A DNA stretch of 58,590 bases from Syntrophobacteraceae bacterium (GTDB lineage Bacteria; Desulfobacterota; Syntrophobacteria; Syntrophobacterales; Syntrophobacteraceae): positions 2,416-61,005 of the forward strand of contig PLSV01000330.1 in the NCBI GenBank assembly GCA_003165235.1. The letters are read 5' to 3'. Below are positions 4,789 to 26,396 of the stretch, piece after piece. A model generated the notes under the pieces. The model saw only the letters and a list, made by a program, of their open reading frames with translations, had not been told where the DNA came from and did not search any database. The position numbers and the translations under genes are program-made. Numbering within the stretch: the first letter of the stretch is position 1; the number at the start of each line of letters is the position of its first letter.

Positions 4789-5760
4789 CTAAAGGGAGAT
4801 ATGGATGAAAGCCTTTGATTCCAGGTCATGGACCCACTCTTCAAACTTGCGGTTCACTTCCTGCTCGTACAGATTTTTTCGAACCTTTTCGCGCAAAGCC
4901 GAGTCTGTCTTACTGATCTTCTTGCTGTCGATATCAAATAGCTTAATGATGTAATATCCGCCAGGCCCCTGCACCAGACCGGATACCTGGTCCTTCCTCA
5001 GGTTGCGGATCCCTTGGGCGATAAAGGGGGCGATTTCATCGCCCGCCAGGTATCCGACATCCCCCCCCTCCTGGGCGGCGGGTCCCTTGGAATACTGTTT
5101 GGCCATACTCTGGAAATCCGCGCCGCCTTTGATCTTGTCCAGTATTTCACGGCCTGCTTTCTCAGCCTCTTCCGGCTTTGCATATTTATCGCCGACCGGA
5201 AGTACGATCAAACCCAGATGGACCTTCTGAGAAGTCGAAGCGGCCTCGCCCCTCTCACCACTCAGATAAGTCTCGACCTGCTTATCGCTGATCAGCACCT
5301 TCGAGTTGCAGACCCGTTCCACGAGACGCTCTCGTTCCATGTCCTTCTTTATCTGCGTGCGAAATTTATCAAGTGTCTGGCCGTTAGCCTTGAGATTGAC
5401 CTCAAGCTGCGCTACGGTCGAATGGCTCTGCTCCAGAATTTGTTGGAGTCTGAAGTCCACCTCGGAAGAGCCGACCGTAACCTTAAGCCGCTCTGCTTCC
5501 ATGTCGGCGAGTTTCTGCCGGATCATCTGAGTGAGAACATCGTGTTCAACTTTCGCCTTCTTTGCCGGATCCGTAACATTCAGCATCGGCATGTTTTTTT
5601 CCAGAACTTTAATCTGCTGCCGAAGTTCGCTGTAAAGGATTATTTCTCCGTTGACGTTGGCCACGATGCGGTCCACCATTTCGGCTCGCGCCTTTGCGCA
5701 TGAAAGAACGCCGGCGAGAACAATGCAAACCGTAAGAGTTGCAACTCCACGAGGACTCAT
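4789..5760 (-). CDS. surA: SurA-like periplasmic peptidyl-prolyl isomerase/chaperone
   Basis: A 323-residue exported chaperone for outer-membrane proteins. The start at 5760 is chosen for GGGAGGTGAT directly before the ATG and because it gives a clean signal peptide (VATLTVCIVLAGVLSCAKARA). The SurA N-domain begins VDRIVANVNGEIILYSEL. One parvulin domain follows (about 185-290, with GGDVGYLAGDEIAPF). There is a short C-terminal helix. E. coli SurA has two parvulin domains and this one has one, which is common in deltaproteobacteria. A longer frame upstream to 5877 overlaps mfd and is not preferred. Confidence 0.85.
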   Translation of the reverse strand: MSPRGVATLTVCIVLAGVLSCAKARAEMVDRIVANVNGEIILYSELRQQIKVLEKNMPMLNVTDPAKKAKVEHDVLTQMIRQKLADMEAERLKVTVGSSEVDFRLQQILEQSHSTVAQLEVNLKANGQTLDKFRTQIKKDMERERLVERVCNSKVLISDKQVETYLSGERGEAASTSQKVHLGLIVLPVGDKYAKPEEAEKAGREILDKIKGGADFQSMAKQYSKGPAAQEGGDVGYLAGDEIAPFIAQGIRNLRKDQVSGLVQGPGGYYIIKLFDIDSKKISKTDSALREKVRKNLYEQEVNRKFEEWVHDLESKAFIHISL

Positions 5761-8800: not shown

Positions 8801-9443
8801 GCCAGCGGTACAGGGGAGCATATACGTCGAGCACGCCGCCACGGCGGCTCAAATCGCCGTAATCCTCAACGAGCGATACCCGGAAGAACCCGCGCTCGAT
8901 CAGCCTTCGCATAAAACCTTCCGGGTCGGCGCTTTCTCCGGCAAGCTTGTGATCCATATTGGCGAGGAGAACCTTCGGTGGGATAAGACGCTCAATTAGA
9001 GCCAGAGCGGAGGTAACCACCACCATGGGAGAAGGCGCGGCGCGCAAAGCATAGAGGGCTTCAATCCTGCGAGCTGTTGTTTCCGCTTTTCCGAGCGCCT
9101 GGGCCTTGTGACCGGTGCGTGACGGCAAAAACCAAACCCGCCGTCCCAGTGGAGCCCCGCCGTTTTCCACCTGGCCCTTGCCTCCGAAAAGGCAAATCAT
9201 CTCGGCGAATCTCTCGGCTTCCCTGTCAGTCGGAGCGACCAGCACGAAAGGTTTTTGAATCTGCCGCATGGCCATCGAGACCAGATAGGCCAAGGCTGAA
9301 GGCTGGACGCCTCTGATAACCGCCGACTCTTCAGACTTCATCAAAAACGAGACGACCTCTCCGGATGCGGATTTAAAATCCGGTCCGGCAATTCGCTCTG
9401 CGGATAATTCAAAATGCTCTTCTCGGGACTGGGGAAATGTCAT
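5862..9443 (-). CDS. mfd: transcription-repair coupling factor
   Basis: A protein of about 1193 residues that removes RNA polymerase stalled at DNA lesions and recruits UvrABC. The order is UvrB-like N-terminal module, RNAP-interacting domain (FIVHVDHGIGVYKEL then DGDKLYVPVDKLEKVQKYMG), superfamily-2 translocase with CGDVGYGKTEVALRAA and DEEHRFG, the TRG region (RADKFGLAQIYQLRGRVGRS), and a C-terminal TRCF domain. The length is typical. An ATG at 9443 is used. A TTG at 9464 in frame (7 residues longer) is possible. It heads a minus-strand group with surA and rodZ and is divergent from selA. Confidence 0.95.
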   Translation of the reverse strand: MTFPQSREEHFELSAERIAGPDFKSASGEVVSFLMKSEESAVIRGVQPSALAYLVSMAMRQIQKPFVLVAPTDREAERFAEMICLFGGKGQVENGGAPLGRRVWFLPSRTGHKAQALGKAETTARRIEALYALRAAPSPMVVVTSALALIERLIPPKVLLANMDHKLAGESADPEGFMRRLIERGFFRVSLVEDYGDLSRRGGVLDVYAPLYRWPLRFEFFGDQLESIRLFHPVTQRSMGALEDAVILPASEIVLDVEARQRAQDAVYEDVRKDLLSPAAGNIWLERIAEGYHLDAFESVFSVFFEKTASIWEYLDRNAILVWTDAVQVRREMEGQWEKLLRTWEDGGSESEWRRRPNELYDEPEKSFEAACSFQQLLSNSLSQRQGATTVFDLGTAPHTELAAAVKAHENRERLLDPLAARLRRWIDEDVSVYLICSHKERAARIGELLKNYGIESVVSGRGFGEESFRSNLVKIIHGPLSNGFFWQAEKLAVIAEEEIFERRSRRRGQKPVAGIFLNSFQDLHQGDFIVHVDHGIGVYKELAHLNAGGAENDFLLIAYQDGDKLYVPVDKLEKVQKYMGLEGQEPEVDKLGGKSWERAKRKARESAEKMAEELLDLYATRQVGEGYSFTPPDNYFQEFETTFAFEETQDQVKAIEDVLDDMISKRPMDRLICGDVGYGKTEVALRAAFKAVMDGKQVAMLVPTTVLAEQHHESFLERFEGFPVNVASLSRFKSAAQQKEILNGLKKGSIDIVIGTHRLLQQDVVFKDLGLLIIDEEHRFGVRHKERLKKLRTSVDVLTLTATPIPRTLHMALAGIRDLSTIETPPQDRRAIETYVTNYDEFAIREAIHREINRYGQVFFVHNHVQTIQQMAARLAVLVPEARISVAHGQMRERDLERVMLDFIHKKIDVLVCTTIIESGLDIPAANTIIINRADKFGLAQIYQLRGRVGRSSEQAFAYLIIPGETLISRDAQKRLRALLDFSELGAGFKIALNDLQIRGGGAILGSSQSGHVAAIGYELYLELLEKAIKSMKGDESQAEAIETEINLPVSVFLPEDYICDTDQRLIAYKRLATLADEQSIEDLAGEWRDRYGPLPETVKSLILMAMMRLLLKRLKVVRLDGDSENFILTFAQSVDILPVISFFEKKKLNFVPESERKLRVEIWGRNFPQRILRLKRILQELHENATNCEPH

Positions 9444-9664
9444 TATTTTGCCGAAAATCCTCAAAAATTCTGGTACAAAAGAATCGGGCTAACCCCGATG
9501 GATCAAATTATATCACACATGACGCACTCTTCATCCGGAAACACAAATTGCATTTACTCTAGCAGCGCGCCATTCGCGCGTGCAACTCCCTTATTGCAGA
9601 ATGTTGCATGAATTGATATCCATCCAAAAACACCCGTGGGATACTAACATTTTCGAGGCAAACA

Positions 9665-11080
9665 ATGGGCAAAAACCAGGCCAAACAATACCTAAGGCAA
9701 ATACCGGGCGTAGATGCCGTCCTGCAAATGGAAGCTGTCCGGGTTGCGCTCTCCCGCCATCCACGCAAGCTGGTCTTGGATGCAATACGCGAGGAACTCG
9801 ATGAGACCAGAAAACAGATATTGGAGTCCCCCGGGACTCCAGCAGCAATAGATCCCTCTGAGCTTGCCCGCTCGATAGCGGAGCGCGCGGATCGACTGGC
9901 TGCTTTCACTCTGCGCCCGGTTGTAAACGCAACCGGAATAGTGATTCACACCAACCTCGGCCGCTCCCTTCTTCCAGAAGAAGCTCTCGCGAGACTTCAG
10001 ACAGTTTGCCGTGGCTACAGCAGCCTCGAATACGATCTCCACTCAGGCGAACGGGGATCCAGACACGTTCACGCCGAGGCGATCCTTCGTGAACTGACCG
10101 GCGCTCAAGCCGTCCTGGTAGTAAATAACAACGCGGGAGCGGTCTTCCTGATTCTCAACTCGCTTGCCAGGGGCCGTGAGGTTGTGGTCTCCAGAGGGCA
10201 GTTGGTCGAAATCGGGGGATCTTTTCGGATTCCGGACGTAATGAGCTCAAGCGGCGCAATACTAAGAGAGGTGGGCACGACTAATCGCACGCACCTCAAA
10301 GATTATGTGTCGGCCATTACCGACCAGACCGCCCTGCTCATGAAGGTGCATACGAGTAACTACAGGATCGTGGGCTTTACCAAAGATGTCCCGCTCAATG
10401 AACTGGCAACCTTGGGACGCGAGCGCGGGTTGCCTGTCGTGGAAGACCTCGGAAGTGGATGCTTCATCAATCTGACGCAGTTTGGACTGCACGGCGAGAT
10501 AACGGTGCAGGAGACTCTCCGGGCAGGCGCCGATCTGGTCAGCTTCAGCGGGGACAAGCTGCTCGGAGGTCCTCAGGCAGGCATCATAGTCGGCAGGAAG
10601 GATCTGATAGAAAAGTGCAGGAAAAATCCAATCACGCGCGCCCTGCGGGTTGACAAAATGACGCTGGCTGCCCTCGATGCGACCCTGAGGCTGTACAGAG
10701 ACGAACGGCAGGCCCTGGAGAAAATTCCTACTCTCACAATGATAGGCCTTTCTGCGGAAGAATTGAACGGTCGTGCCAAACAACTTGCTTCAGCCATTCA
10801 AGGGGCGGACCCGCAAGCAACGCTCCGGGTCGAGGTCCGTCGGAGCTTTTCACAGGTGGGCGGTGGTTCTCTTCCTGCCCAGGATTTGCCCACTTTTGTC
10901 GTGGCGATCCAGTCAGGCGATTTCAGTCCGAATCAAATCGAAGAATTCCTTCGCCGAAACGATCCTCCCATAATAGGGAGAATCGAATCCGATCATTTCA
11001 TTATGGACCTGCGCACCATTATGCCCCAACAAATTGAATTAATCGCACTGGCGTTCAGGCGCATAGCGGAACCACTGTAA
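9665..11080 (+). CDS. selA: L-seryl-tRNA(Sec) selenium transferase
   Basis: A 471-residue PLP enzyme that converts seryl-tRNA(Sec) to selenocysteyl-tRNA(Sec) using selenophosphate. It shows the SelA N-terminal domain (KQYLRQIPGVDAVLQ), the conserved RPVVNATGIVIHTNLGRS segment, and the PLP lysine in SFSGDKLLGGPQAG. The length matches the family. It implies that the organism makes selenoproteins. However, selB, selD and tRNA(Sec) are not in the window, although selB often follows selA. No in-window gene shows a convincing in-frame UGA selenocysteine. Confidence 0.95.
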   Translation: MGKNQAKQYLRQIPGVDAVLQMEAVRVALSRHPRKLVLDAIREELDETRKQILESPGTPAAIDPSELARSIAERADRLAAFTLRPVVNATGIVIHTNLGRSLLPEEALARLQTVCRGYSSLEYDLHSGERGSRHVHAEAILRELTGAQAVLVVNNNAGAVFLILNSLARGREVVVSRGQLVEIGGSFRIPDVMSSSGAILREVGTTNRTHLKDYVSAITDQTALLMKVHTSNYRIVGFTKDVPLNELATLGRERGLPVVEDLGSGCFINLTQFGLHGEITVQETLRAGADLVSFSGDKLLGGPQAGIIVGRKDLIEKCRKNPITRALRVDKMTLAALDATLRLYRDERQALEKIPTLTMIGLSAEELNGRAKQLASAIQGADPQATLRVEVRRSFSQVGGGSLPAQDLPTFVVAIQSGDFSPNQIEEFLRRNDPPIIGRIESDHFIMDLRTIMPQQIELIALAFRRIAEPL

Positions 11081-16427: not shown

Positions 16428-17333
16428 ATGATAATTTCGTTTTTGAAAATCTGTTTGGTATTCGTGCTGACATTTAGCATTCAGCCCTGCTTGGCCCTGG
16501 CCCAGGGACCGATGCATGTCGCCGTCAGTATTCTTCCTCAGCGCTATTTTGTGGAGAAGATTGGAGGACAATTCGTCGAAGTTGAGGTAATGGTCCCTCC
16601 GGGGGCAACTCCGGAAACATACGAACCCAGGCCCGGGCAGATGTCTGTGCTGAGCCGGTCCAGGATTTACTTCGCCTGTGGAGTTCCGTTCGAAACCATA
16701 TGGCTCTCGAAAATCATTTCCATAAACTCAAAAATTCTGGTGATACACACCGAAAAGGATATCAAGAAAAGAGAGATCGAAGCCCATTCACATCCCGGCG
16801 AGAGCGTCAAACCGCAGAGCGGAGGCTCTCATGAAGAACCAGGCGACCCTCACATCTGGCTCTCACCGCCTCTGGTGATCCTCCAGGCCCGGGCGATCTT
16901 TGAAGCCCTTGCGGCAACCGATCCGCAGAACGGCGCCTTTTACGAGACCAATTACAAGGCATTCGTTTCCGAGTTGGTTGAATTGGACCTTTACCTTTCC
17001 CGCCTGTTTGGGGCAGGGGCGAAATCGGGCTCGTTCATGGTTTTTCATCCCGCCTGGGGCTACTTTGCCGACGCGTACGGGCTCAAGCAGGCGGCGGTGG
17101 AAGTGGAAGGAAAGGAGCCAAAGGCAAGAGAGCTTGATGAGTTCATAAAACGCGCTCGCGAGCTTGGAGCAAAAGCCATATTCGTTCAGCCGCAATATTC
17201 GCCCAAGCCCGCCCAGATCATAGCCGACGCGGTTGGGGGCACGCTGGTCCAGGCTGACGACCTGGCGCCCGACTGGGAAAAAAACCTCCTGCAGGTGGCC
17301 TGGCAAATTTCAGCCGCTCTTGGCAGGCAATAG
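16428..17333 (+). CDS. znuA: zinc ABC transporter substrate-binding protein
   Basis: A 301-residue periplasmic cluster-9 metal binder. It has a signal peptide (about 1-25), the first metal-side region VAVSILPQRYFVEKIGG, a short His/Glu-rich loop (EAHSHPGE, then GGSHEEPGDPH) typical of zinc-specific ZnuA, and the conserved DPHIWLSP. The loop is short compared with E. coli. znuC and znuB follow immediately, which supports zinc import, although manganese cannot be excluded. A GAAGGG site precedes the ATG. No clear Zur box was identified. Confidence 0.88.
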   Translation: MIISFLKICLVFVLTFSIQPCLALAQGPMHVAVSILPQRYFVEKIGGQFVEVEVMVPPGATPETYEPRPGQMSVLSRSRIYFACGVPFETIWLSKIISINSKILVIHTEKDIKKREIEAHSHPGESVKPQSGGSHEEPGDPHIWLSPPLVILQARAIFEALAATDPQNGAFYETNYKAFVSELVELDLYLSRLFGAGAKSGSFMVFHPAWGYFADAYGLKQAAVEVEGKEPKARELDEFIKRARELGAKAIFVQPQYSPKPAQIIADAVGGTLVQADDLAPDWEKNLLQVAWQISAALGRQ

Positions 17334-17346
17334 GGAGAGATCGAAT

Positions 17347-18117
17347 ATGCCTGTTTCGGCTATTGAGTTGAACAATATCTTTTTTTTCTATAACAGCCAT
17401 TCCATTCTGTCCGGTGTGAACCTGAAGGTGGAGGAGCAGGATTTCCTGGCAATAATCGGACCTAACGGCAGTGGTAAGACTACCCTGCTCAAGATCATCC
17501 TGGGCATTTTGAACCCTGGGCAGGGGACCGTAAGGATTTTCGGCAAGACGCCCCTGGAAGCCGCCGGACTGCTTGGGTATGTCCCACAGGACACGGGGCT
17601 TAACAAGGATTTCCCTATTTCCGTTCAGGATGTTGCGCTTATGGGCAGGCTCGGCCGCAGGGGGCGAGAGCGCCGATACACTTCCGAAGATAGGGCCCTT
17701 GTCAGACGGGTATTGGAACAAGTTGGGATGTGGGAGTTCCGGGACCGGCCAATCGGCAAGCTCTCCGGTGGTCAGAGACAGCGGGTGCTGATTGCCCGGG
17801 CGCTTACCGTCGAACCGAAAGTCTTGCTCATGGACGAGCCTACCGCCAGCGTGGACGCGCAGTTCCAAACCGACCTATATGACCTGCTGAAAGAATTGAA
17901 CGCTACGATCACCATTGTCGTCGTGAGCCACGACATGAGCGTCCTGTCCGGCTATATCAACTCGGTCGCCTGCCTCAATCGCACCCTTTACTATCACGAA
18001 TCAGGCGAAATCACTGACGAGATGCTGCATGCAGCCTACCAATGCCCCGTTGACCTAATAGTCCACGGCGGGGTGCCTCATCGCGTTCTGCGCAAGCACG
18101 ACCACGAGGACTCCTGA
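17347..18117 (+). CDS. znuC: zinc ABC transporter ATP-binding protein
   Basis: A 256-residue ABC ATPase of the metal (ZnuC/MntB) family. It has Walker A GPNGSGKTT, Q-loop LGYVPQDTGLNKDFP (the family signature), LSGGQRQR, Walker B LLMDEPTASVD, and the switch histidine in VVVSHDMSV. The ATG at 17347 follows GGGAGAG; a longer frame back to 17233 overlaps znuA and is rejected. It ends 3 bases before znuB, so the three genes form an operon. Confidence 0.9.
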   Translation: MPVSAIELNNIFFFYNSHSILSGVNLKVEEQDFLAIIGPNGSGKTTLLKIILGILNPGQGTVRIFGKTPLEAAGLLGYVPQDTGLNKDFPISVQDVALMGRLGRRGRERRYTSEDRALVRRVLEQVGMWEFRDRPIGKLSGGQRQRVLIARALTVEPKVLLMDEPTASVDAQFQTDLYDLLKELNATITIVVVSHDMSVLSGYINSVACLNRTLYYHESGEITDEMLHAAYQCPVDLIVHGGVPHRVLRKHDHEDS

Positions 18118-18120
18118 GAA

Positions 18121-18939
18121 ATGCTCGAAGTCTTCCAATCCGAATTCATGCGCAACGCTCTTTTTGCCGGATTGCTCGCCAGCGTGGCTTGCGGGATTAT
18201 AGGAACGCTCGTCGTCGTAAACCGGATCGTTTTTATCTCGGGTGGAATCGCTCACGCCGCTTACGGCGGCATCGGATTGGCCTTTTTCTTGGGGATTGCG
18301 CCGCTGGCCGGGGCGGTCGGATTTGCGCTGGCGATCGCGATGATCATGGCCGCCGTCACACTGAAAAATAAGCAGAGGGCCGATACCGTCGTAGGTGTCT
18401 TGTGGGCCTTGGGAATGGCCCTGGGAATCATAATGATCGACCTCACACCGGGATATAATGTGGACCTGATGAGCTACTTGTTCGGGAGCATTCTGGCCGT
18501 GCCGCGTGCGGATATAGTGATGATGGCCTTGGTTGATGTTGGGGTGCTGGTAATTGTGGGGACGCTCTACAACAGCTTCCTTGCTATGTCTTTCGACGAG
18601 GAATTCGCGAAGGCCATGGGGGTCCGGGTTGGAATGCTTTACTACGTTCTGCTCGGGATGATCGCGCTTTCGGTAATCATGCTCATTCGCATTGTGGGCC
18701 TGGTTTTGGTTATTGCTCTTCTCACCATCCCGCCGTTCATTGCGGAAAAATTCTGCCGCTCCCTTAAAGCGATGATGATAACCTCGGTATTTCTTAATTT
18801 TTTCTTTTCACTCGCCGGTTTGTGGTTTTCCTACAGATTTAACCTTACCTCCGGGGCGACAATAATAATGGTTGCGGCAGCCTTTTTTTTCGCTTCGCTA
18901 ATCTATGAGCGGGTGCGCAACCATCTCGGCGGGTCTTAA
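18121..18939 (+). CDS. znuB: zinc ABC transporter permease
   Basis: A 272-residue inner-membrane permease of the ABC-3 family with about eight hydrophobic segments. It has the usual N-terminal helix (FMRNALFAGLLASVACGIIG) and the conserved cytoplasmic region VVNRIVFISGGIAHAAYGG. It completes znuABC. It is convergent with the copper ATPase gene, 51 bases apart. Confidence 0.9.
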   Translation: MLEVFQSEFMRNALFAGLLASVACGIIGTLVVVNRIVFISGGIAHAAYGGIGLAFFLGIAPLAGAVGFALAIAMIMAAVTLKNKQRADTVVGVLWALGMALGIIMIDLTPGYNVDLMSYLFGSILAVPRADIVMMALVDVGVLVIVGTLYNSFLAMSFDEEFAKAMGVRVGMLYYVLLGMIALSVIMLIRIVGLVLVIALLTIPPFIAEKFCRSLKAMMITSVFLNFFFSLAGLWFSYRFNLTSGATIIMVAAAFFFASLIYERVRNHLGGS

Positions 18940-18990: not shown

Positions 18991-21570
18991 TCAAGGGATT
19001 CGATCTCGAGTGAATCCGGAAATCCTGGAAGCGTTGTAGATAACGGTCACGCTGCTGGCGAACATGGCGAAGGCGGCGATGAGCGGATTTAGAATGCCGG
19101 CGGCTGCAAGCGGAATCCCAAAAACATTATAGAAAAAGGAAAAGAAAAGATTCTGCCTGGTGATCTTGAAGGAAAAGCGGGAAAGTTCGAGCAGTTCGGG
19201 TATCTTTAACAGATCGTCTCCGAGGATCGCAGCATCGGAGCATTCCCGGGTCAGATTTGCGCCTGCCCCGAGCGTTATTCCAAGGTCTGAGCGGGCGAGG
19301 GCCGCCGCATCGTTTATTCCGTCGCCGGCCATCGCAACTCGTTTTCCCTGCGCCTGGAACTCTTCAATTATCCTGACCTTATCCTGCGGACGCCTTTGAC
19401 CGGCGAAGTTGTCCGCCCCCGCCTGAAGCGCGAGCGTCCGAGTGGTTTCCTCCGAATCCCCGGAGACTATCCATACCGAGATGCCCTCGGAGCGGAGCCT
19501 GGATACGATTTCTCGCGCATTGTCCCTCAGCCTGTCGCCAAAGACAAAAAACCCTCTTACAGCGCCGCTCCAGGCAAAATATACAATTGTCGATCCGGAG
19601 GTCTCAAAAGCGTGGGCCCGGTCCCGGAGCACATCCGAAAATCCCAGCCCATAGTGGATCATCAGTTGCCGGGCGCCGGCCATCACCTCGCCGGACCGTG
19701 TCAGGGCGCTTATCCCCAGCCCCTCCCATGCCTCAAAAGACAGCACCTCATCGAGTTCCATAGAGTGAAGGCGCGCGGCCTTCACTATCTCGCGGGCCAG
19801 GAAATGATCCGATTTGACTTCCGCTGAGGCGACCCGCTGCAGGGCTTCATCTGCGTTTGCGTCCAGGGTGACTGTCTCGCGCAGAATGTAGGCGCCTTCG
19901 GTCAAGGTCCCTGTTTTATCGAAAATCATCACGTCCAGGCGGTCGGCTCGTTCGAGGGCTGCGGGGTTGCGGATGAGTATGCCGGAAGCGCGCGCCCTGG
20001 CGATTGCGGCAACTCTGGCAAGAGGGGTGGCTATTCCGAGAGCGCAGGGACATGTTATCACGAGTACGGCTAACGCCCGCAAAAGAGCTTCGCCCGCCGG
20101 TGTGGAGGATGCGAGAAGAAAGATGAAGATGGAAGCGGAGAGCGCCAGCACGGCGGGGACCAGGACCCGCATGAAGCGGTCTGCAAACAGCTCGAGTCGG
20201 TTCTTGGTAGAAAGCGCTTCCTGAATCAATGTAATTATCTGGTTGAGGGAACTTTGGTCCCCCGCACGGACGGCCTCAAATTTCGCCTCTCCATTCAACA
20301 CGAGCGATCCGGCAGACACGTCGGCTCCGGGTCCCTTTTTCACCGGACGCGATTCCCCGGTTGTTACGGATTCGTCCAGAACGGCCTCCCCGGAAAAGAC
20401 ACGTCCGTCAATGGGTAAGCGCTCACCGGGAAACACCAGGAACAAATCGCCCCTGGAAACCTTATCGGACGCCGTCCAGATTTCCCTGCCGTCTTTTGAG
20501 ATTCGGGCCTTCCCGCTTGCTGCGTGAAAAAGCGCGGTGATCGTACCGGAAATCTTTTCTTTTGCCCGAGTTTCAATGAATCTGCCGAGCAGAACGAGCG
20601 TGACTAGCATCGAGGCGGTATCGAAATACACATGAAGGCTTCCCCGCAAAGTCGCCGCAACGCTGTAAAAATAGGCCGAGAGCACGCCGGCCGCTATCAG
20701 CGTGTCCATGGTGGCGCTAAGATGCAGGATGCCCCGGAATGCCTTGCGCAAGATCGGCCAGCCTGCGTAGAAAACGACGGGTGAGGAGATCGCCCAGAGG
20801 GTATATGAAAAAAGCGCCGCTCCCTCTCGTCCGATCTGTTCGAAAAAACCGGCCCAAAGAGCAAATGAGATCATCATTATGTTCATGCTGAGGATAGCGG
20901 AAATCCCGAGCCGTACGACAAGGTCCCTGCTTTGGCCCGAGTCGGGCGTGGATTCGGCCGGATAGGCCCTGTATCCCAGCCGGGAGATGCTCTCCATGAT
21001 AGTTTTGGGCTGGACCAGATGGGGCATGTACCTGATGCGGGCTATGTCCGAAAAAAAGAAGATGCCGGCGCTCAGCACTCCGTCCATTTTGCGCAGAAGA
21101 TGCTCGATGAGCCACGAACAGGCGATGCACCACATTCCTTCGATCCGGAGGGAAAGTTCCTGCGAGAGTCCTTCCTCGATCAGGGCTGCGGTAGGACCGT
21201 CAGCCGGCGCTTGCCCCGGACCCGATCCGGAGACCTCGACAGCCTGCCTGTCCACCCGCGAGGCTGGCTGACGGTCAAGGGGCCGATCCCGGCTGGTGAG
21301 CCAGGCGGAGTCGGGCCTGGATGGCGGAGTATTCTTGTCTTCGACCTCTGCCGATGGAATGAGGCCCGCTGAAACGCAAGCCCTGTAGAGTTCGGTATTT
21401 CGATAATCGCCGGGAACCCCTTCGGGGCTGTTGTAGAGAATCTGGAAGACATACATGCAGCCTAGGCAGCAAAAATGCGCGGTCCGGCCCGCAACCGGCT
21501 GAGAGATATTCGATCTCCCCGCCGGAAAACCGCACAGGCAGCACGTCTTGTCTGAAATCTGCGCTGACAA
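18991..21570 (-). CDS. copper-transporting P1B ATPase, FixI/CcoI-like
   Basis: A protein of about 859 residues. The N-terminal Cys-rich ATPase-catalytic-binding domain (CCLCGFPAG, then FCCLGCMYVF) is followed by a Ser/Pro-rich linker and an HMA domain with GMWCIACSW. Eight membrane helices include the CPC ion motif (ITCPCALGIATPLA). The phosphorylation loop is DKTGTLTEG and the hinge is MAGDGINDAAALARSD. The extra N-terminal domain and GMWCxxCxW are typical of CcoI/FixI-type ATPases that load copper into heme-copper oxidases. No cco genes are nearby. A TTG at 21570 is preferred because GGGGAAAGAG lies upstream; a TTG at 21588 is the alternative. Confidence 0.85.
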   Translation of the reverse strand: MSAQISDKTCCLCGFPAGRSNISQPVAGRTAHFCCLGCMYVFQILYNSPEGVPGDYRNTELYRACVSAGLIPSAEVEDKNTPPSRPDSAWLTSRDRPLDRQPASRVDRQAVEVSGSGPGQAPADGPTAALIEEGLSQELSLRIEGMWCIACSWLIEHLLRKMDGVLSAGIFFFSDIARIRYMPHLVQPKTIMESISRLGYRAYPAESTPDSGQSRDLVVRLGISAILSMNIMMISFALWAGFFEQIGREGAALFSYTLWAISSPVVFYAGWPILRKAFRGILHLSATMDTLIAAGVLSAYFYSVAATLRGSLHVYFDTASMLVTLVLLGRFIETRAKEKISGTITALFHAASGKARISKDGREIWTASDKVSRGDLFLVFPGERLPIDGRVFSGEAVLDESVTTGESRPVKKGPGADVSAGSLVLNGEAKFEAVRAGDQSSLNQIITLIQEALSTKNRLELFADRFMRVLVPAVLALSASIFIFLLASSTPAGEALLRALAVLVITCPCALGIATPLARVAAIARARASGILIRNPAALERADRLDVMIFDKTGTLTEGAYILRETVTLDANADEALQRVASAEVKSDHFLAREIVKAARLHSMELDEVLSFEAWEGLGISALTRSGEVMAGARQLMIHYGLGFSDVLRDRAHAFETSGSTIVYFAWSGAVRGFFVFGDRLRDNAREIVSRLRSEGISVWIVSGDSEETTRTLALQAGADNFAGQRRPQDKVRIIEEFQAQGKRVAMAGDGINDAAALARSDLGITLGAGANLTRECSDAAILGDDLLKIPELLELSRFSFKITRQNLFFSFFYNVFGIPLAAAGILNPLIAAFAMFASSVTVIYNASRISGFTRDRIP

Positions 21571-21827
21571 ATATGTCTCTTTCCCCAAAGGGATTTACGG
21601 GACTCGGGGCCTGCAGGAATCAGTTCTTTTCACAACCCCATCGCTTTTCACAGGCGCAGGGGGACCAATATCGAGCCGCAGATACCTGTTAACTTAAAAG
21701 GATGACAATTTCCACACCATTTCATGACGCTATTAAAAGATCCTTAGAGTGGGTCAAGCGGAGCGCAGCCCGCCAAGTCTTTTCGAATCAGGCGCAGAGC
21801 ACGCTGAGATCCCCGGATCAGAGCCTG

Positions 21828-22163: not shown

Positions 22164-23096
22164 ATGAGGGGAATAAGAGATCGCAGAGGGCGTCCCCCGA
22201 TATGCGTGCTCAGGCTTGCGTTTTTGTCAATCTGCCTTGCTTTGCTTATCAGCAGCGGGGCGCTCTCGGGCTGCGGCGGCAAAAAGCCGGAAACAAGGGC
22301 CGGTGCGGGCGGCAACGCCAGGGTAATTGAAAATAAAGGGTCGGATACACTTGTAAACCTGGCGCTTGCGTGGGCCGAAGCATATATGGAGGCGCATCCG
22401 GAGGTGAGCATTTCGGTGACCGGAGGAGGCAGCGGAACGGGCATTGCGGCCATGATAAACGGGACGGTTTCGATCGCAAGCGCATCCAGGGAAATGAAAC
22501 CCGAAGAGATAGCGGCCGCGAAAGCCAACGGTGTGAGCCCAGTGGAATTTACGGTTGCCAACGACGCAATCGCGGTCGTCGTCAGCCCTTCCAACCCGGT
22601 TCAACGTATGAGCATCCAGCAGATTTCAGACATTTACACCGGCGAGATCAAGAACTGGATGGAAGTTGGGGGAGAGAACAGGCCGATCGTGCTGCTGTCA
22701 AGGGAGTCCAATTCCGGAACTTATGTCTATTTTCTGGAGAATGTGATCCGGATGGGAAACAGCAAGAGCAAACTTCTGTTTTCGGCAGACACGCTCCTTA
22801 TGCCGTCGAGTGAAGGGATAAGCAGTGAAATTCGCCAAAACCCGAACGCAATCGGATATGACGGCCTCGGTTACGTGACCGCTGACCTGAAGGTCATAGC
22901 AGTATCAAAGAGTGAAAACGGCCCCTTTGTCATCCCGTCGGCGGAGACCGTCAAAAACGGTTCCTATCCTATTGCCCGTCCGCTCTACATGTATACGGCG
23001 GGTCAGCCTGCGGGACAGGTAAAGGACTACATAGAATGGATACATAACGGTGGCCAGACCCTTGTGGCAAAACTGGGCTTTGTCCCTCTACAATAA
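22164..23096 (+). CDS. pstS: phosphate ABC transporter substrate-binding lipoprotein
   Basis: A 310-residue PstS-like binding protein. It has a lipoprotein signal with lipobox LSGC (about residues 35-38), then the phosphate-site loops ENKGSDTLVNL, GGGSGTGIAAM, SREM, and RESNSGTYVYF. GGAGGT lies 5 bases before the ATG. It heads a tightly coupled pstS-C-A-B-B unit. A phoU gene is absent downstream, which is unusual for a pst operon. Confidence 0.92.
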   Translation: MRGIRDRRGRPPICVLRLAFLSICLALLISSGALSGCGGKKPETRAGAGGNARVIENKGSDTLVNLALAWAEAYMEAHPEVSISVTGGGSGTGIAAMINGTVSIASASREMKPEEIAAAKANGVSPVEFTVANDAIAVVVSPSNPVQRMSIQQISDIYTGEIKNWMEVGGENRPIVLLSRESNSGTYVYFLENVIRMGNSKSKLLFSADTLLMPSSEGISSEIRQNPNAIGYDGLGYVTADLKVIAVSKSENGPFVIPSAETVKNGSYPIARPLYMYTAGQPAGQVKDYIEWIHNGGQTLVAKLGFVPLQ

Positions 23097-24027
23097 AATT
23101 TCACAAGAGCGTGTGAGGCGCCGTACCGGTTCATCCGAAAAAGCGGGCAAACGCTTGACCGAGTTTTTCATCGAATCAGCCATCCGCGTACTCGGATTTT
23201 CCACTATCGGTTTCGTGCTGCTCATCTTTTTCTTCCTGCTCAAAGAGGGTCTCCCCATATTATGGGAGGTTTCTCCCGGCAACCTGTTTGGGACCCGGTG
23301 GTATCCCACCTTCGATATTTTCGGCGCCCTGCCCCTGATCCTGGGATCGGCTTACGTAACCATAGCTGCAATAGCTATCGCCCTTCCCCTGGGAGTGACA
23401 ACCGCTGTTTTTGTCCGGGAAGCGGCGCCCGATTGGGCTCGTGAAATTCTAAAACCACTGATCGAAGTACTTGCGGGAATACCTTCCGTGGTTCTGGGCT
23501 TTTTCGGAATGCACGTCATAGCGCCTATGGTGCGCACCACTCTAAATGTCCCGACGGGCCTTACGGCCTTCACGGGCGCTGTGCTTCTGGCCTATATGTC
23601 TTTGCCCACAATAATCAGCGTAGCCGAGGACGCCCTGGACAGCGTGCCGAAGAGTTACCGCGATGCGGCCCTGGCGATGGGCGCCACCCATTGGCAGACT
23701 ATCTGGCGGGTAATTGTGCCTGCTGCGCGCTCGGGCATCGCTGTGGCCGTGATGCTCGGGATGGGCAGGGCTATCGGCGAGACGATGGCGGTCATGATGG
23801 TCACCGGAAATGCGGCCCGGATGCCTCTCAGTCTTGGATCGATCTTCATGCCCGTGAGGACTATGACCGCTACGGTGGCGGCCGAAATGGGAGAGGTTGC
23901 AAACGGCAGCGTTCACTATCACGCTCTTTTTGGAATCGGGATCATCCTGTTTATTCTTACTTTTATCATCAATATTGTTGCTGCAGGCGCAATTTTCAAA
24001 AAGCGGCAAAAGGGAGGTCTGCGCTGA
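23050..24027 (+). CDS. pstC: phosphate ABC transporter permease PstC
   Basis: A protein of up to 325 residues with six membrane helices and the permease EAA loop (DAALAMGATHWQTIWRVIVPAARSG), typical of PstC. The GTG at 23050 overlaps pstS by 47 bases. A GTG at 23113 would remove the overlap and still keep the first helix, so the true start is undecided. It ends in an ATGA overlap with pstA. Confidence 0.88.
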   Translation: MARPLWQNWALSLYNKISQERVRRRTGSSEKAGKRLTEFFIESAIRVLGFSTIGFVLLIFFFLLKEGLPILWEVSPGNLFGTRWYPTFDIFGALPLILGSAYVTIAAIAIALPLGVTTAVFVREAAPDWAREILKPLIEVLAGIPSVVLGFFGMHVIAPMVRTTLNVPTGLTAFTGAVLLAYMSLPTIISVAEDALDSVPKSYRDAALAMGATHWQTIWRVIVPAARSGIAVAVMLGMGRAIGETMAVMMVTGNAARMPLSLGSIFMPVRTMTATVAAEMGEVANGSVHYHALFGIGIILFILTFIINIVAAGAIFKKRQKGGLR

Positions 24028-24872
24028 TGAACCGCAATCGGGCGCAACAGATAGGATTTGCGGTGCTGACACTGTCGGCGATAGCCGTAGTTGCGCCCAT
24101 TTTGATCGTGATAGGAATTATTCTGGTCGAAGGGGCAAGAGCCATCTCCTGGGAATTCATTTTTTCGATGCCTTACGAGGGCATGAAACAGGGAGGCATT
24201 TTCCCGGCCATAGTCGGAACGCTTATTTTGACAGTGTGCACTGCAGTCGCCGCCATCCCCGTAGGTGTCGCCGGGACCATTTATCTTGCCGAGTATGCGA
24301 AAGACACCTGGATAACACGGGCCATCCGGCTTGCGATCGTAAACCTGGCAGGCATTCCTTCCATCGTTTACGGACTTTTCGGACTGGGCATGTTCGTCCT
24401 GTTTCTGCATATGGGCACTTCAATCGTAGCCGGCGTGCTGACCCTGGCAATCATGACCCTGCCGGTCATCATCAGCACCTCCGAAGAAGCGCTGCGGGCC
24501 GTACCCATGGAATTCCGCACGGTTATCGCAAGTCTTGGCGGCACGCGCTGGCAGGCAATCCGCCATATCGTGCTTCCGGAGGCCCTGCCGGGCATAATAA
24601 CGGGCATAATTCTGGGCCTTTTGCGCGCCGCCGGGGAGACCGCCCCCATTCTTTTTACGGTTGCCGCCTTCTATCTGCCCCGCCTGCCCCAGTCGCCCTT
24701 CGACCAGGTAATGGCGCTGCCCTATCACCTCTATGTCATCAGCACCCAGGTGCCCGGCATGCCGGTCAGCGTTCAGTACGGCACGGCGCTCGTGCTGCTC
24801 ATTCTCGTCCTGTCCATGAATGTGGCGGCAACGGTCCTGCGAAGCTATTTCCGCAGGAGGCGGCAATGGTAG
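24027..24872 (+). CDS. pstA: phosphate ABC transporter permease PstA
   Basis: A 281-residue membrane protein with six predicted helices and the EAA loop (VIASLGGTRWQAIRHIVLPEALPG), plus the PstA-typical region GLLRAAGETAPILFTVAAF. The ATG overlaps the pstC stop (TGATG) and AGGGAGGT lies upstream, indicating translational coupling. It pairs with PstC to form the phosphate channel. Confidence 0.92.
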   Translation: MNRNRAQQIGFAVLTLSAIAVVAPILIVIGIILVEGARAISWEFIFSMPYEGMKQGGIFPAIVGTLILTVCTAVAAIPVGVAGTIYLAEYAKDTWITRAIRLAIVNLAGIPSIVYGLFGLGMFVLFLHMGTSIVAGVLTLAIMTLPVIISTSEEALRAVPMEFRTVIASLGGTRWQAIRHIVLPEALPGIITGIILGLLRAAGETAPILFTVAAFYLPRLPQSPFDQVMALPYHLYVISTQVPGMPVSVQYGTALVLLILVLSMNVAATVLRSYFRRRRQW

Positions 24873-25624
24873 AGCCAAAAATATGCATCGAGGAGGTAAA
24901 CTATTTTTACAGGGATTTCCAGGCGCTGCGTAACATCACCCTGGAGGCGCCGCCCAGGTCCGTAACAGTTTTTTTCGGTCCGGCGGGAGGCGGAAAGACA
25001 ACCTTGCTTCGTCTGATTAATAGGCTAAACGATATGGTCGACGATACCCGCATGACGGGGCGGGTTCTTTTGGACGGCAAAAACGTCTACGACCCCGGCG
25101 CCAACGTCGCAAGCCTGCGCCGCCGCGTTGGGATGGTCTTCGCGCTCCCGCTTCCTCTTCCCGGGACCGTTCGGGAAAATGTCACCTACGGGCTGAAGCT
25201 GGCCGGGCGGCGGGACGGCGGCAAAATGGAGCAAATCCTGGAGCGCAGTCTCACCCAGGCCGCTTTATGGGATGAGGTTAAGGACAGGCTTGACAGCCCG
25301 GCAAACGCCCTTTCCGGAGGCCAGCAACAAAGGCTTTGCATCGCCAGAAGCCTGGCGCTGGAGCCGGAGGTGCTGCTGCTCGACGAACCAACCTCGGGTC
25401 TTGACCCGATTTCAACGAGAAAGGTCGAGGAATCTCTGCACGAGTTGAAAAAACTCTATACGATCATCATCGTTCCGCACAGCATACAGCAGGCAGCCAG
25501 AGTGGCGGACCAGGCGGCTTTCCTTCTCATGGGGGACCTGATCGAATACCGTGCCGGTACGGAGATATTCACAACCCCCCATGACAAGCGCACGGAAGAT
25601 TACGTTACGGGCCGTTTCGGATAG
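24866..25624 (+). CDS. PstB-like ATPase 1, Q-loop Gln replaced by Ala
   Basis: A 252-residue PstB-family ABC ATPase whose start overlaps the pstA stop. Walker A (GPAGGGKTT), signature LSGGQ (149-153), Walker [13 protein letters not shown] and the H-loop histidine (205) are present. The Q-loop normally reads FQRPNPFP, but here it reads FALPLPLP, with Ala at residue 93 (GCG at 25142-25144). In ABC ATPases the Q-loop Gln contacts Mg/water and the transmembrane domains. A second PstB follows with the opposite defect. Most likely the two form a heterodimer. Family membership is firm and the asymmetry is inferred. Confidence 0.85.
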
Positions 25625-25640
25625 CCCTCTAAGCGAAGAT

Positions 25641-26396
25641 ATGGAAAAAATCAGGGTAGAGAGCCTAAATTTTTATTACGGCCAAAAACTGGCCCTCAGC
25701 AATATTTCGATGTCCATACAGGATCGGCTCATAACGGCGCTGATCGGGCCTTCGGGGTGCGGCAAATCGACTTTTCTGCGTTGCCTCAACCGGATGAACG
25801 ACACTATTCGAGGCACGAAGGTGGAGGGCCGCGTCGAATTCGGCGGCCAGGACATCTACTCCCCCGGCGCCGATGTGGTTGAGCTGCGCAGGCGGGTAGG
25901 CATGGTCTTCCAGCGCCCAAACCCTTTTCCTCAGTCCATTTTCGACAATATCGCATTCGGGCCGCGTGTGCTTGGACTTCACGCGAATAAGAGGGACCTT
26001 TCCGAAATAGTTGAAGGAAGTCTTCGCAGCGCCGTACTCTGGGATGAGGTCAGGGACAGGTTGAAAGAAAATGCGCTGGGTCTTTCTCTTGGCCAGCAGC
26101 AAAGACTCTGCATCGCCCGAACCATCGCCGTAAAGCCTGAAGTCATCCTGATGGATGAGCCCTGCTCGGCGCTGGACCCGATTGCGACCCTTCAGATTGA
26201 AGAACTCATGCGGTCGCTCAAAAAAGATTACTCTATAGTCATTGTGACCCATAACATGCAGCAGGCTTCGCGCGCTTCCGAGTACACGGGCTTGTTCTGG
26301 CTGGGCGAATTGGTCGAATTCAATGCAACCGAGACTATCTTCACCCGCCCGAGCCAGAAACTCACCGAAGACTACATAACCGGCAGGGCGGGATAA
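25641..26396 (+). CDS. pstB: phosphate ABC transporter ATPase PstB, variant signature LSLGQ
   Basis: A 251-residue canonical-looking PstB. It has Walker [10 protein letters not shown], the intact Q-loop FQRPNPFP (Gln 91), Walker [13 protein letters not shown], and the switch histidine in [10 protein letters not shown]. The signature is LSLGQ (148-152) rather than LSGGQ, with Leu at 150 (CTT, 26088-26090). The ATG at 25641 lies 17 bases after pstB copy 1; longer upstream extensions overlap that gene. It closes the pst unit. Confidence 0.88.

Follow-up and report, generated by a model that had tools for sequence, protein, structure and literature searches.

The window, by which we mean the whole stretch of 58,590 nucleotides analysed from contig PLSV01000330.1 of a Syntrophobacteraceae bacterium, contains genes predicted to encode a Pst-type phosphate importer, with transport as its predicted function (Table 1). 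The pstS, pstC and pstA genes are adjacent and all scored above the curated cut-offs of their families; they are followed in the same direction by two pstB genes, designated hereafter as copy 1 (B1) and copy 2 (B2), with 16 bases between them. The best family for both copies was PstB (TIGR00972, curated cut-off 343.2 bits), with copy 2 above the cut-off at 384.9 bits and copy 1 just under it at 332.5 bits. Directly upstream of the pst operon lies a gene for a heavy-metal P-type ATPase (18991-21588, minus strand), and a zinc-type ABC ATPase/permease pair (17233-18939, plus strand) is also found upstream, both named by reading. Two more Pst-like operons are present on contig C210 of the same genome (locus L009, PstB at 4815-5594 and 9123-9857), each with one divergent PstB in which the Q-loop and LSGGQ are intact. 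A preliminary description of this DNA had reported phoU as missing. This held for the surroundings of the pair, with no phoU adjoining it among the window's open reading frames as judged by reading, but not for the genome, where other contigs carry two PhoU genes; the product of one shares 62% identity with PhoU from a sister genome. A phoU gene is a common, though not a universal, member of Pst operons. In six of nine relatives belonging to the window's family (L142-L150), phoU adjoins copy 2.

Table 1. Genes and motifs of the pst operon, in window coordinates
Feature	Position	Strand	Remarks
pstS, phosphate-binding protein	22164..23096	+	TIGR02136, 265 bits (cut-off 206.6)
pstC, permease	23050..24027	+	TIGR02138, 278.5 bits (cut-off 196.45); ORF overlaps pstS, true start uncertain
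PstC EAA loop / coupling helix	23629..23712	+	Small canonical residues retained
pstA, permease	24027..24872	+	TIGR00974, 268.3 bits (cut-off 193.45); 3' end overlaps start of copy 1
PstA EAA loop / coupling helix	24486..24569	+	Val166 (24522-24524) and Ser169 (24531-24533); canonical PstA mostly Ala/Gly at both
pstB copy 1 (B1), 252 aa	24866..25624	+	Walker A / Q-loop / H-loop side altered; LSGGQ intact
B1 Walker A, altered	24977..25003	+	Canonical GPSGCGKST
B1 Q-loop, Ala93 (GCG) in place of Gln	25142..25144	+	Ala/Asp/Ser in 52/52 B1; Gln in 181/181 canonical
B1 signature LSGGQ, intact	25310..25324	+	
B1 D-loop SGLD (canonical SALD)	25394..25405	+	Gly in 50/52 B1
B1 H-loop VPH (canonical VTH)	25472..25480	+	Pro in 52/52 B1; Thr in 181/181 canonical
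pstB copy 2 (B2), 251 aa	25641..26396	+	All motifs canonical (H-loop VTH) except signature
B2 Q-loop FQRP, Q91 kept	25908..25919	+	
B2 signature LSLGQ, Leu150 (CTT, 26088-26090)	26082..26096	+	Leu in 48/48 B2; Gly in 181/181 canonical

The residues and codons singled out in the preliminary description, Ala93 beside a normal LSGGQ in copy 1 and LSLGQ beside a normal Q-loop in copy 2, were correct. Profiles of B1 and B2 were used to select the PstB proteins for comparison, which are not a random sample of the family. Leaving out rows with more than 40 gaps, 282 distinct proteins were obtained, with Q-loop and signature residues of Gln/Gly in 181 (canonical PstB), Gln/Leu in 48, Ala/Gly in 37, Asp/Gly in 13, Ser/Gly in two and Pro/Thr in one; none of the 282 combined a non-Gln Q-loop with the signature Leu. 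The protein with Pro/Thr is a single PstB of a Chloroflexi genome (G420, locus L238, 7895-8650), which has LSTGQ as its signature and VSHSLR at the H-loop and is accompanied by its own pstA, pstC and pstS. All 181 canonical proteins had a Thr-His H-loop and an Asp-Glu Walker B. Alignment columns were termed diagnostic when the residues covering 90% of a group occurred in less than 5% of canonical proteins; the Q-loop and signature residues define the B1, B2 and canonical groups, and only the other columns are independent of that definition. Seventeen diagnostic columns separated B1 or B2 from canonical PstB, a single one in B2 (the signature Leu) and sixteen in B1. Nine of the sixteen lie in or beside motifs of the ATP site (one just before and two within Walker A, three at the Q-loop, one in the D-loop and two at the H-loop), seven lie elsewhere and none is in the signature.

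ABC ATPase dimers are built so that the signature of each subunit lies opposite the Walker A, Q-loop and H-loop of its partner. Given this architecture, the Walker A, Q-loop and H-loop changes of B1 and the signature change of B2 would come together in a single composite site if B1 and B2 dimerise; composite ATP sites of ABC dimers have been described (PMC7756269, in the part of the article available to us). The changes in these motifs were confined to that site, the Walker motifs, Q-loop and H-loop of B2 and the signature of B1 being intact, while the SGLD D-loop of B1 and its seven further diagnostic columns fall outside the one-site picture. Additional losses in B1 were rare, with Walker B Glu replaced by Asn in one of 52 proteins and the H-loop His by Gln in two of 52, and on the same architecture would strike the same site. 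Of the 52 B1 proteins, 51 (that of the window among them) still have the Walker B Glu and 50 still have the H-loop His, so the B1 site may yet be able to hydrolyse ATP.

The preliminary description had proposed that the two defects would meet in one ATP site of a mixed dimer, and had named co-occurrence of the Q-loop and signature changes across genomes as the check on this idea. Such co-occurrence was found: an LxLGQ copy was present in 46 of the 50 genomes with an Ala/Asp copy and an Ala/Asp copy in 46 of the 48 genomes with LxLGQ, the two changes never sharing one chain, and in 41 of the 46 pair genomes both copies lay within one fetched locus. Where the operon has one pstS-pstC-pstA set, the gene orders were S-C-A-B1-B2, B2-S-C-A-B1, or B2 divergent from S-C-A-B1. 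In one genome (G485, loci L315 and L208) the pair operon is split, with pstA-B1-phoU on one contig and B2 divergent from pstS-pstC on another, and neither gene set is at a contig end. B1-type proteins occurred in 52 of the 216 genomes or records read. Among 40 related genomes, ten including the window's contained B1 orthologues, in which Ala93 and Pro204 were invariant and the neighbouring copy 2 had LSLGQ; homologous pairs have thus not kept Gln and LSGGQ, and the recurrence of both changes in orthologues of other genomes indicates more than chance. Within the genus the distribution was patchy, as five of 11 genomes carried B1 and the other six had no match above 275 bits.

A restriction of the pair to this genus was ruled out by wider genome searches. 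A scan of named genomes, in which the best 80 of more than 592 stretches were kept, recovered B1-type genes in three Chloroflexi records (L042, L043 and L051), and in L042 the partner is placed divergently and has the signature LTLGQ. In the window's phylum, B1 was found in 15 of 395 genomes above a score gap (405 versus 382 bits), three of them, with Ala, belonging to the window's family; the 12 from other families all had Asp. Nine of these 12 had the order B2-S-C-A-B1-phoU, with LTLGQ, LALGQ or LMLGQ as the signature; in another (G058) an LSLGQ partner lies on a different contig, and in two (G209 and G232) no LxLGQ partner was found in the genome matches. In Chloroflexota, the phylum of L042, 28 of 400 genomes contained B1, with Ala or Asp in 26 and Ser in two. 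All 26 of the former carried an LxLGQ gene, which diverges from S-C-A-B1 in 17, follows B1 directly in four, lies upstream on the same strand in one and is on another contig in four. The sets from the window's phylum and from Chloroflexota were taken as different phyla, since they had no PstB protein in common and their closest pair was 80% identical. Of the genomes with a B2-profile match, 52 of 71 and 57 of 87 were read, and the 19 and 30 unread genomes could hold further LxLGQ genes.

Four Ala/Asp genomes were without a partner. In G209, G232 and G420 the operon is cut by a contig end, and in G421 no LxLGQ gene was found, though 6.3 kb upstream of its pstS was covered. Conversely, the LxLGQ gene of G254 and G185 is followed by pstS, or by pstS and pstC, and then by the contig end, and the genome search gave no B1-level match in either. 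Two Chloroflexota genomes, G637 and G525, encode a B1-type protein with Ser together with a second Pst operon with a canonical PstB, and no LxLGQ gene was present among their B2-profile matches at E <= 1e-85. These two genomes indicate that a B1-type subunit can occur by itself or alongside a canonical PstB, and their Ser state may be an early or a reduced one. At L231 (7041-7787) and L232 (7228-7980), the Ser-containing B1-type protein is the sole PstB seen in its operon, the PstA coupling helix has Val and the genome is without an LxLGQ match.

An ABC permease contacts its ATPase through the EAA loop, which docks close to the Q-loop. In this loop of PstA, a residue that is Ala or Gly in canonical systems was Val or Ile in every one of the 41 complete pair operons, compared with none of 100 canonical proteins (54 Ala, 45 Gly and one Ser; 13 gapped rows of 113 left out), and a second nearby Ala/Gly was Ser in 40 of 41 pair operons but in only one of 100 canonical proteins. 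Ten further B1 loci all had the PstA Val, with Ser at the second place in six. As Val was also found in PstA of Ser-type operons lacking an LxLGQ partner, the change tracks B1; the coupling helix of PstC was unchanged in pair operons. The combination points to B1 as the likely docking partner of PstA and to B2 as that of PstC. In the PstA tree (141 rows; PstC tree 122 rows; short rows dropped from both), which was built without these columns, a single clade of pair-operon PstA was rejected (AU p 0.0066, in a quick tree with long branches present). This rejection weakens an explanation of the Val/Ile change by ancestry alone, and the change may have arisen twice, gain followed by loss and long-branch effects being the alternatives.

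In a PstB tree including 57 of the 181 canonical proteins, B1 formed one clade, B2 was compatible with one, and B1 and B2 were not sister groups, which disfavours a recent local tandem duplication. The quick tree needed two changes for the origin of B2; constraining B2 to one clade gave a higher likelihood (AU p 0.81), so that two origins are not required. The co-occurrence of B1 and B2 therefore reflects mostly co-inheritance and not many independent origins. Distances among B1 and among B2 proteins of 41 operons were correlated (r = 0.88, with none of 1000 permutations as high), and B1 matched PstC still more closely (0.94), so the B1-B2 match is partly plain co-inheritance of the operon. 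For both copies in five genomes of the genus, dN was 0.025-0.16 and dS at least 0.94, saturated in several pairs; both PstB copies are under purifying selection. A single-chain model of B1 based on 38 aligned sequences (mean pLDDT 93.9) predicted an intact ATPase domain, and its best structural match was E. coli PstB (9k3x_C, TM-score 0.94).

These observations make it highly probable that the operon encodes an asymmetric Pst importer, PstS-PstC-PstA-PstB1-PstB2, in which PstB1 and PstB2 would form an obligate heterodimer whose two ATP sites differ, one being consensus and the other degenerate. The selection on copy 1, its predicted fold and the change of the PstA coupling helix in step with it add to the support for a single affected site. 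From the sequences we infer how the complex would assemble, dock, handle nucleotide and spend ATP. The Walker A and B motifs, Q-loop and H-loop of PstB2 together with the LSGGQ of PstB1 would make up the consensus, hydrolysing site, and the Walker A, Ala/Asp Q-loop and Pro-His H-loop of PstB1 together with the LxLGQ of PstB2 the degenerate one, which would bind ATP, hydrolyse it slowly or never, and act as a hinge. Docking of PstA on PstB1 and of PstC on PstB2 would fix the orientation, and the import of each phosphate would consume about one ATP.

Other explanations of the pair were considered. B1 might be mainly regulatory, the complex reporting phosphate status via PhoU instead of or besides transport, a role compatible with the heterodimer; phoU often adjoins B1 or B2, and canonical PstB was also among the genes read in 13 of the 46 pair genomes, a reading that was not exhaustive. 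We regard this as unlikely, as the pair supplied the sole B2-profile matches at E <= 1e-85 (a threshold at which more divergent PstB could be missed) in G058, G485, G788 and G739, where it is therefore probably the working importer. It is quite unlikely that B1 and B2 each pair with themselves and share PstC and PstA, so that two symmetric transporters of unlike kinetics would exist as alternatives. The solved PstB chains that were found (9k3x, 9k3y and 9k3s) are from E. coli PstSCAB with one PstB sequence per entry, and in Enterococcus faecalis PstB1 could be replaced by an excess of PstB2 according to the available part of PMC12096839; homodimers would, however, carry a defect in both sites each, yet both defects are conserved and reside in separate chains, and the pair operons hold one PstA, which changed in step with B1.

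It seems very improbable that the altered Q-loop and signature are no more than neutral marks of ancestry that never meet in the structure. B1 is one clade, and shared ancestry accounts for much of the pattern, but Gln was replaced in three different ways, the signature Leu was invariant while four residues were tolerated beside it, and the PstA change occurred in proteins outside a single clade, which together indicate selection. The idea that copy 1 is a decaying duplicate, to which its score under the TIGR00972 cut-off and its several altered motif residues might point, is hardly credible for a gene with dN far below dS, an invariant Ala93 and Pro204 in ten aligned orthologues, an intact predicted fold and relatives in so many of the genomes read, and a pseudogene, which the preliminary description had named as fatal to its proposal, was ruled out by dN/dS and the predicted fold.

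The heterodimeric reading can be set against known systems. Importers with two different ATPase subunits, as proposed for the window, include those with EcfA-EcfA' and OppD-OppF. E. coli PstSCAB (9k3x, 9k3y and 9k3s) has PstS, PstC, PstA and PstB subunits in common with the window system, but 9k3x contains one PstB sequence with intact motifs, whereas the window has two unequal PstB proteins and an altered PstA coupling helix; PstB in 9k3s has a Walker B Glu-to-Gln change. Two adjacent pstB genes, as in the window, are known from E. faecalis (pstB1/pstB2) and Bacillus subtilis (pstBA/pstBB). The former are not interchangeable (PMC12096839) and PstBA-PstBB has been modelled as a pair (PMC11466899), but unlike for the window pair no degenerate site is described for either in the parts of these articles available to us. 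In the fused sugar-importer ATPases RbsA and NupO, one ATP site is predicted to be degenerate (PMC11466899, same limitation to part of the text); they differ from the window pair in having two domains in one chain, in belonging to another importer type and in their motif changes.

The likeness to the exporter TM287/288 drawn in the preliminary description proved partial. TM287/288, TAP, MRP1 and CFTR combine one consensus with one degenerate composite site, as proposed here, but the three exporters and CFTR, a channel, have other folds than the Pst importer. According to the accessible portion of PMC7756269, every degenerate site in the human genome has signature changes, and in degenerate-site exporters replacement of the Walker B Glu by Asp ranks second in frequency, whereas B1 has lost the Q-loop Gln and, with the one exception given above, kept this Glu. 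Changes of this catalytic Glu are frequent at degenerate sites, though not universal. No asymmetric Pst importer was described in the literature searched, a search with most subscription papers and all preprints outside its scope, in keeping with the preliminary description, which knew of none. As far as that literature goes, the lopsided ATPase design would be new for phosphate uptake, and it has been studied mainly in exporters, for example multidrug pumps.

More tentatively, these systems could represent an undescribed class of type I importer present in more than one phylum, with turnover at one site, a stationary ATP-bound hinge at the other, a PstA re-fitted to PstB1 in two separate PstA lineages and an ATP cost roughly half that of canonical Pst. 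It is an open question, addressed mainly in exporters, why a degenerate site is so common among ABC transporters (PMC7756269, as far as the text was available). The pair described here would offer a natural importer in which each ATPase half has its own gene, each defect sits in one chain and canonical sister systems are available for comparison, so that one could test directly what a degenerate site does, how much ATP each substrate molecule costs and how one permease half is coupled to one ATPase. For the Pst family itself, the pair cautions against treating genes as equivalent because they share the annotation PstB.
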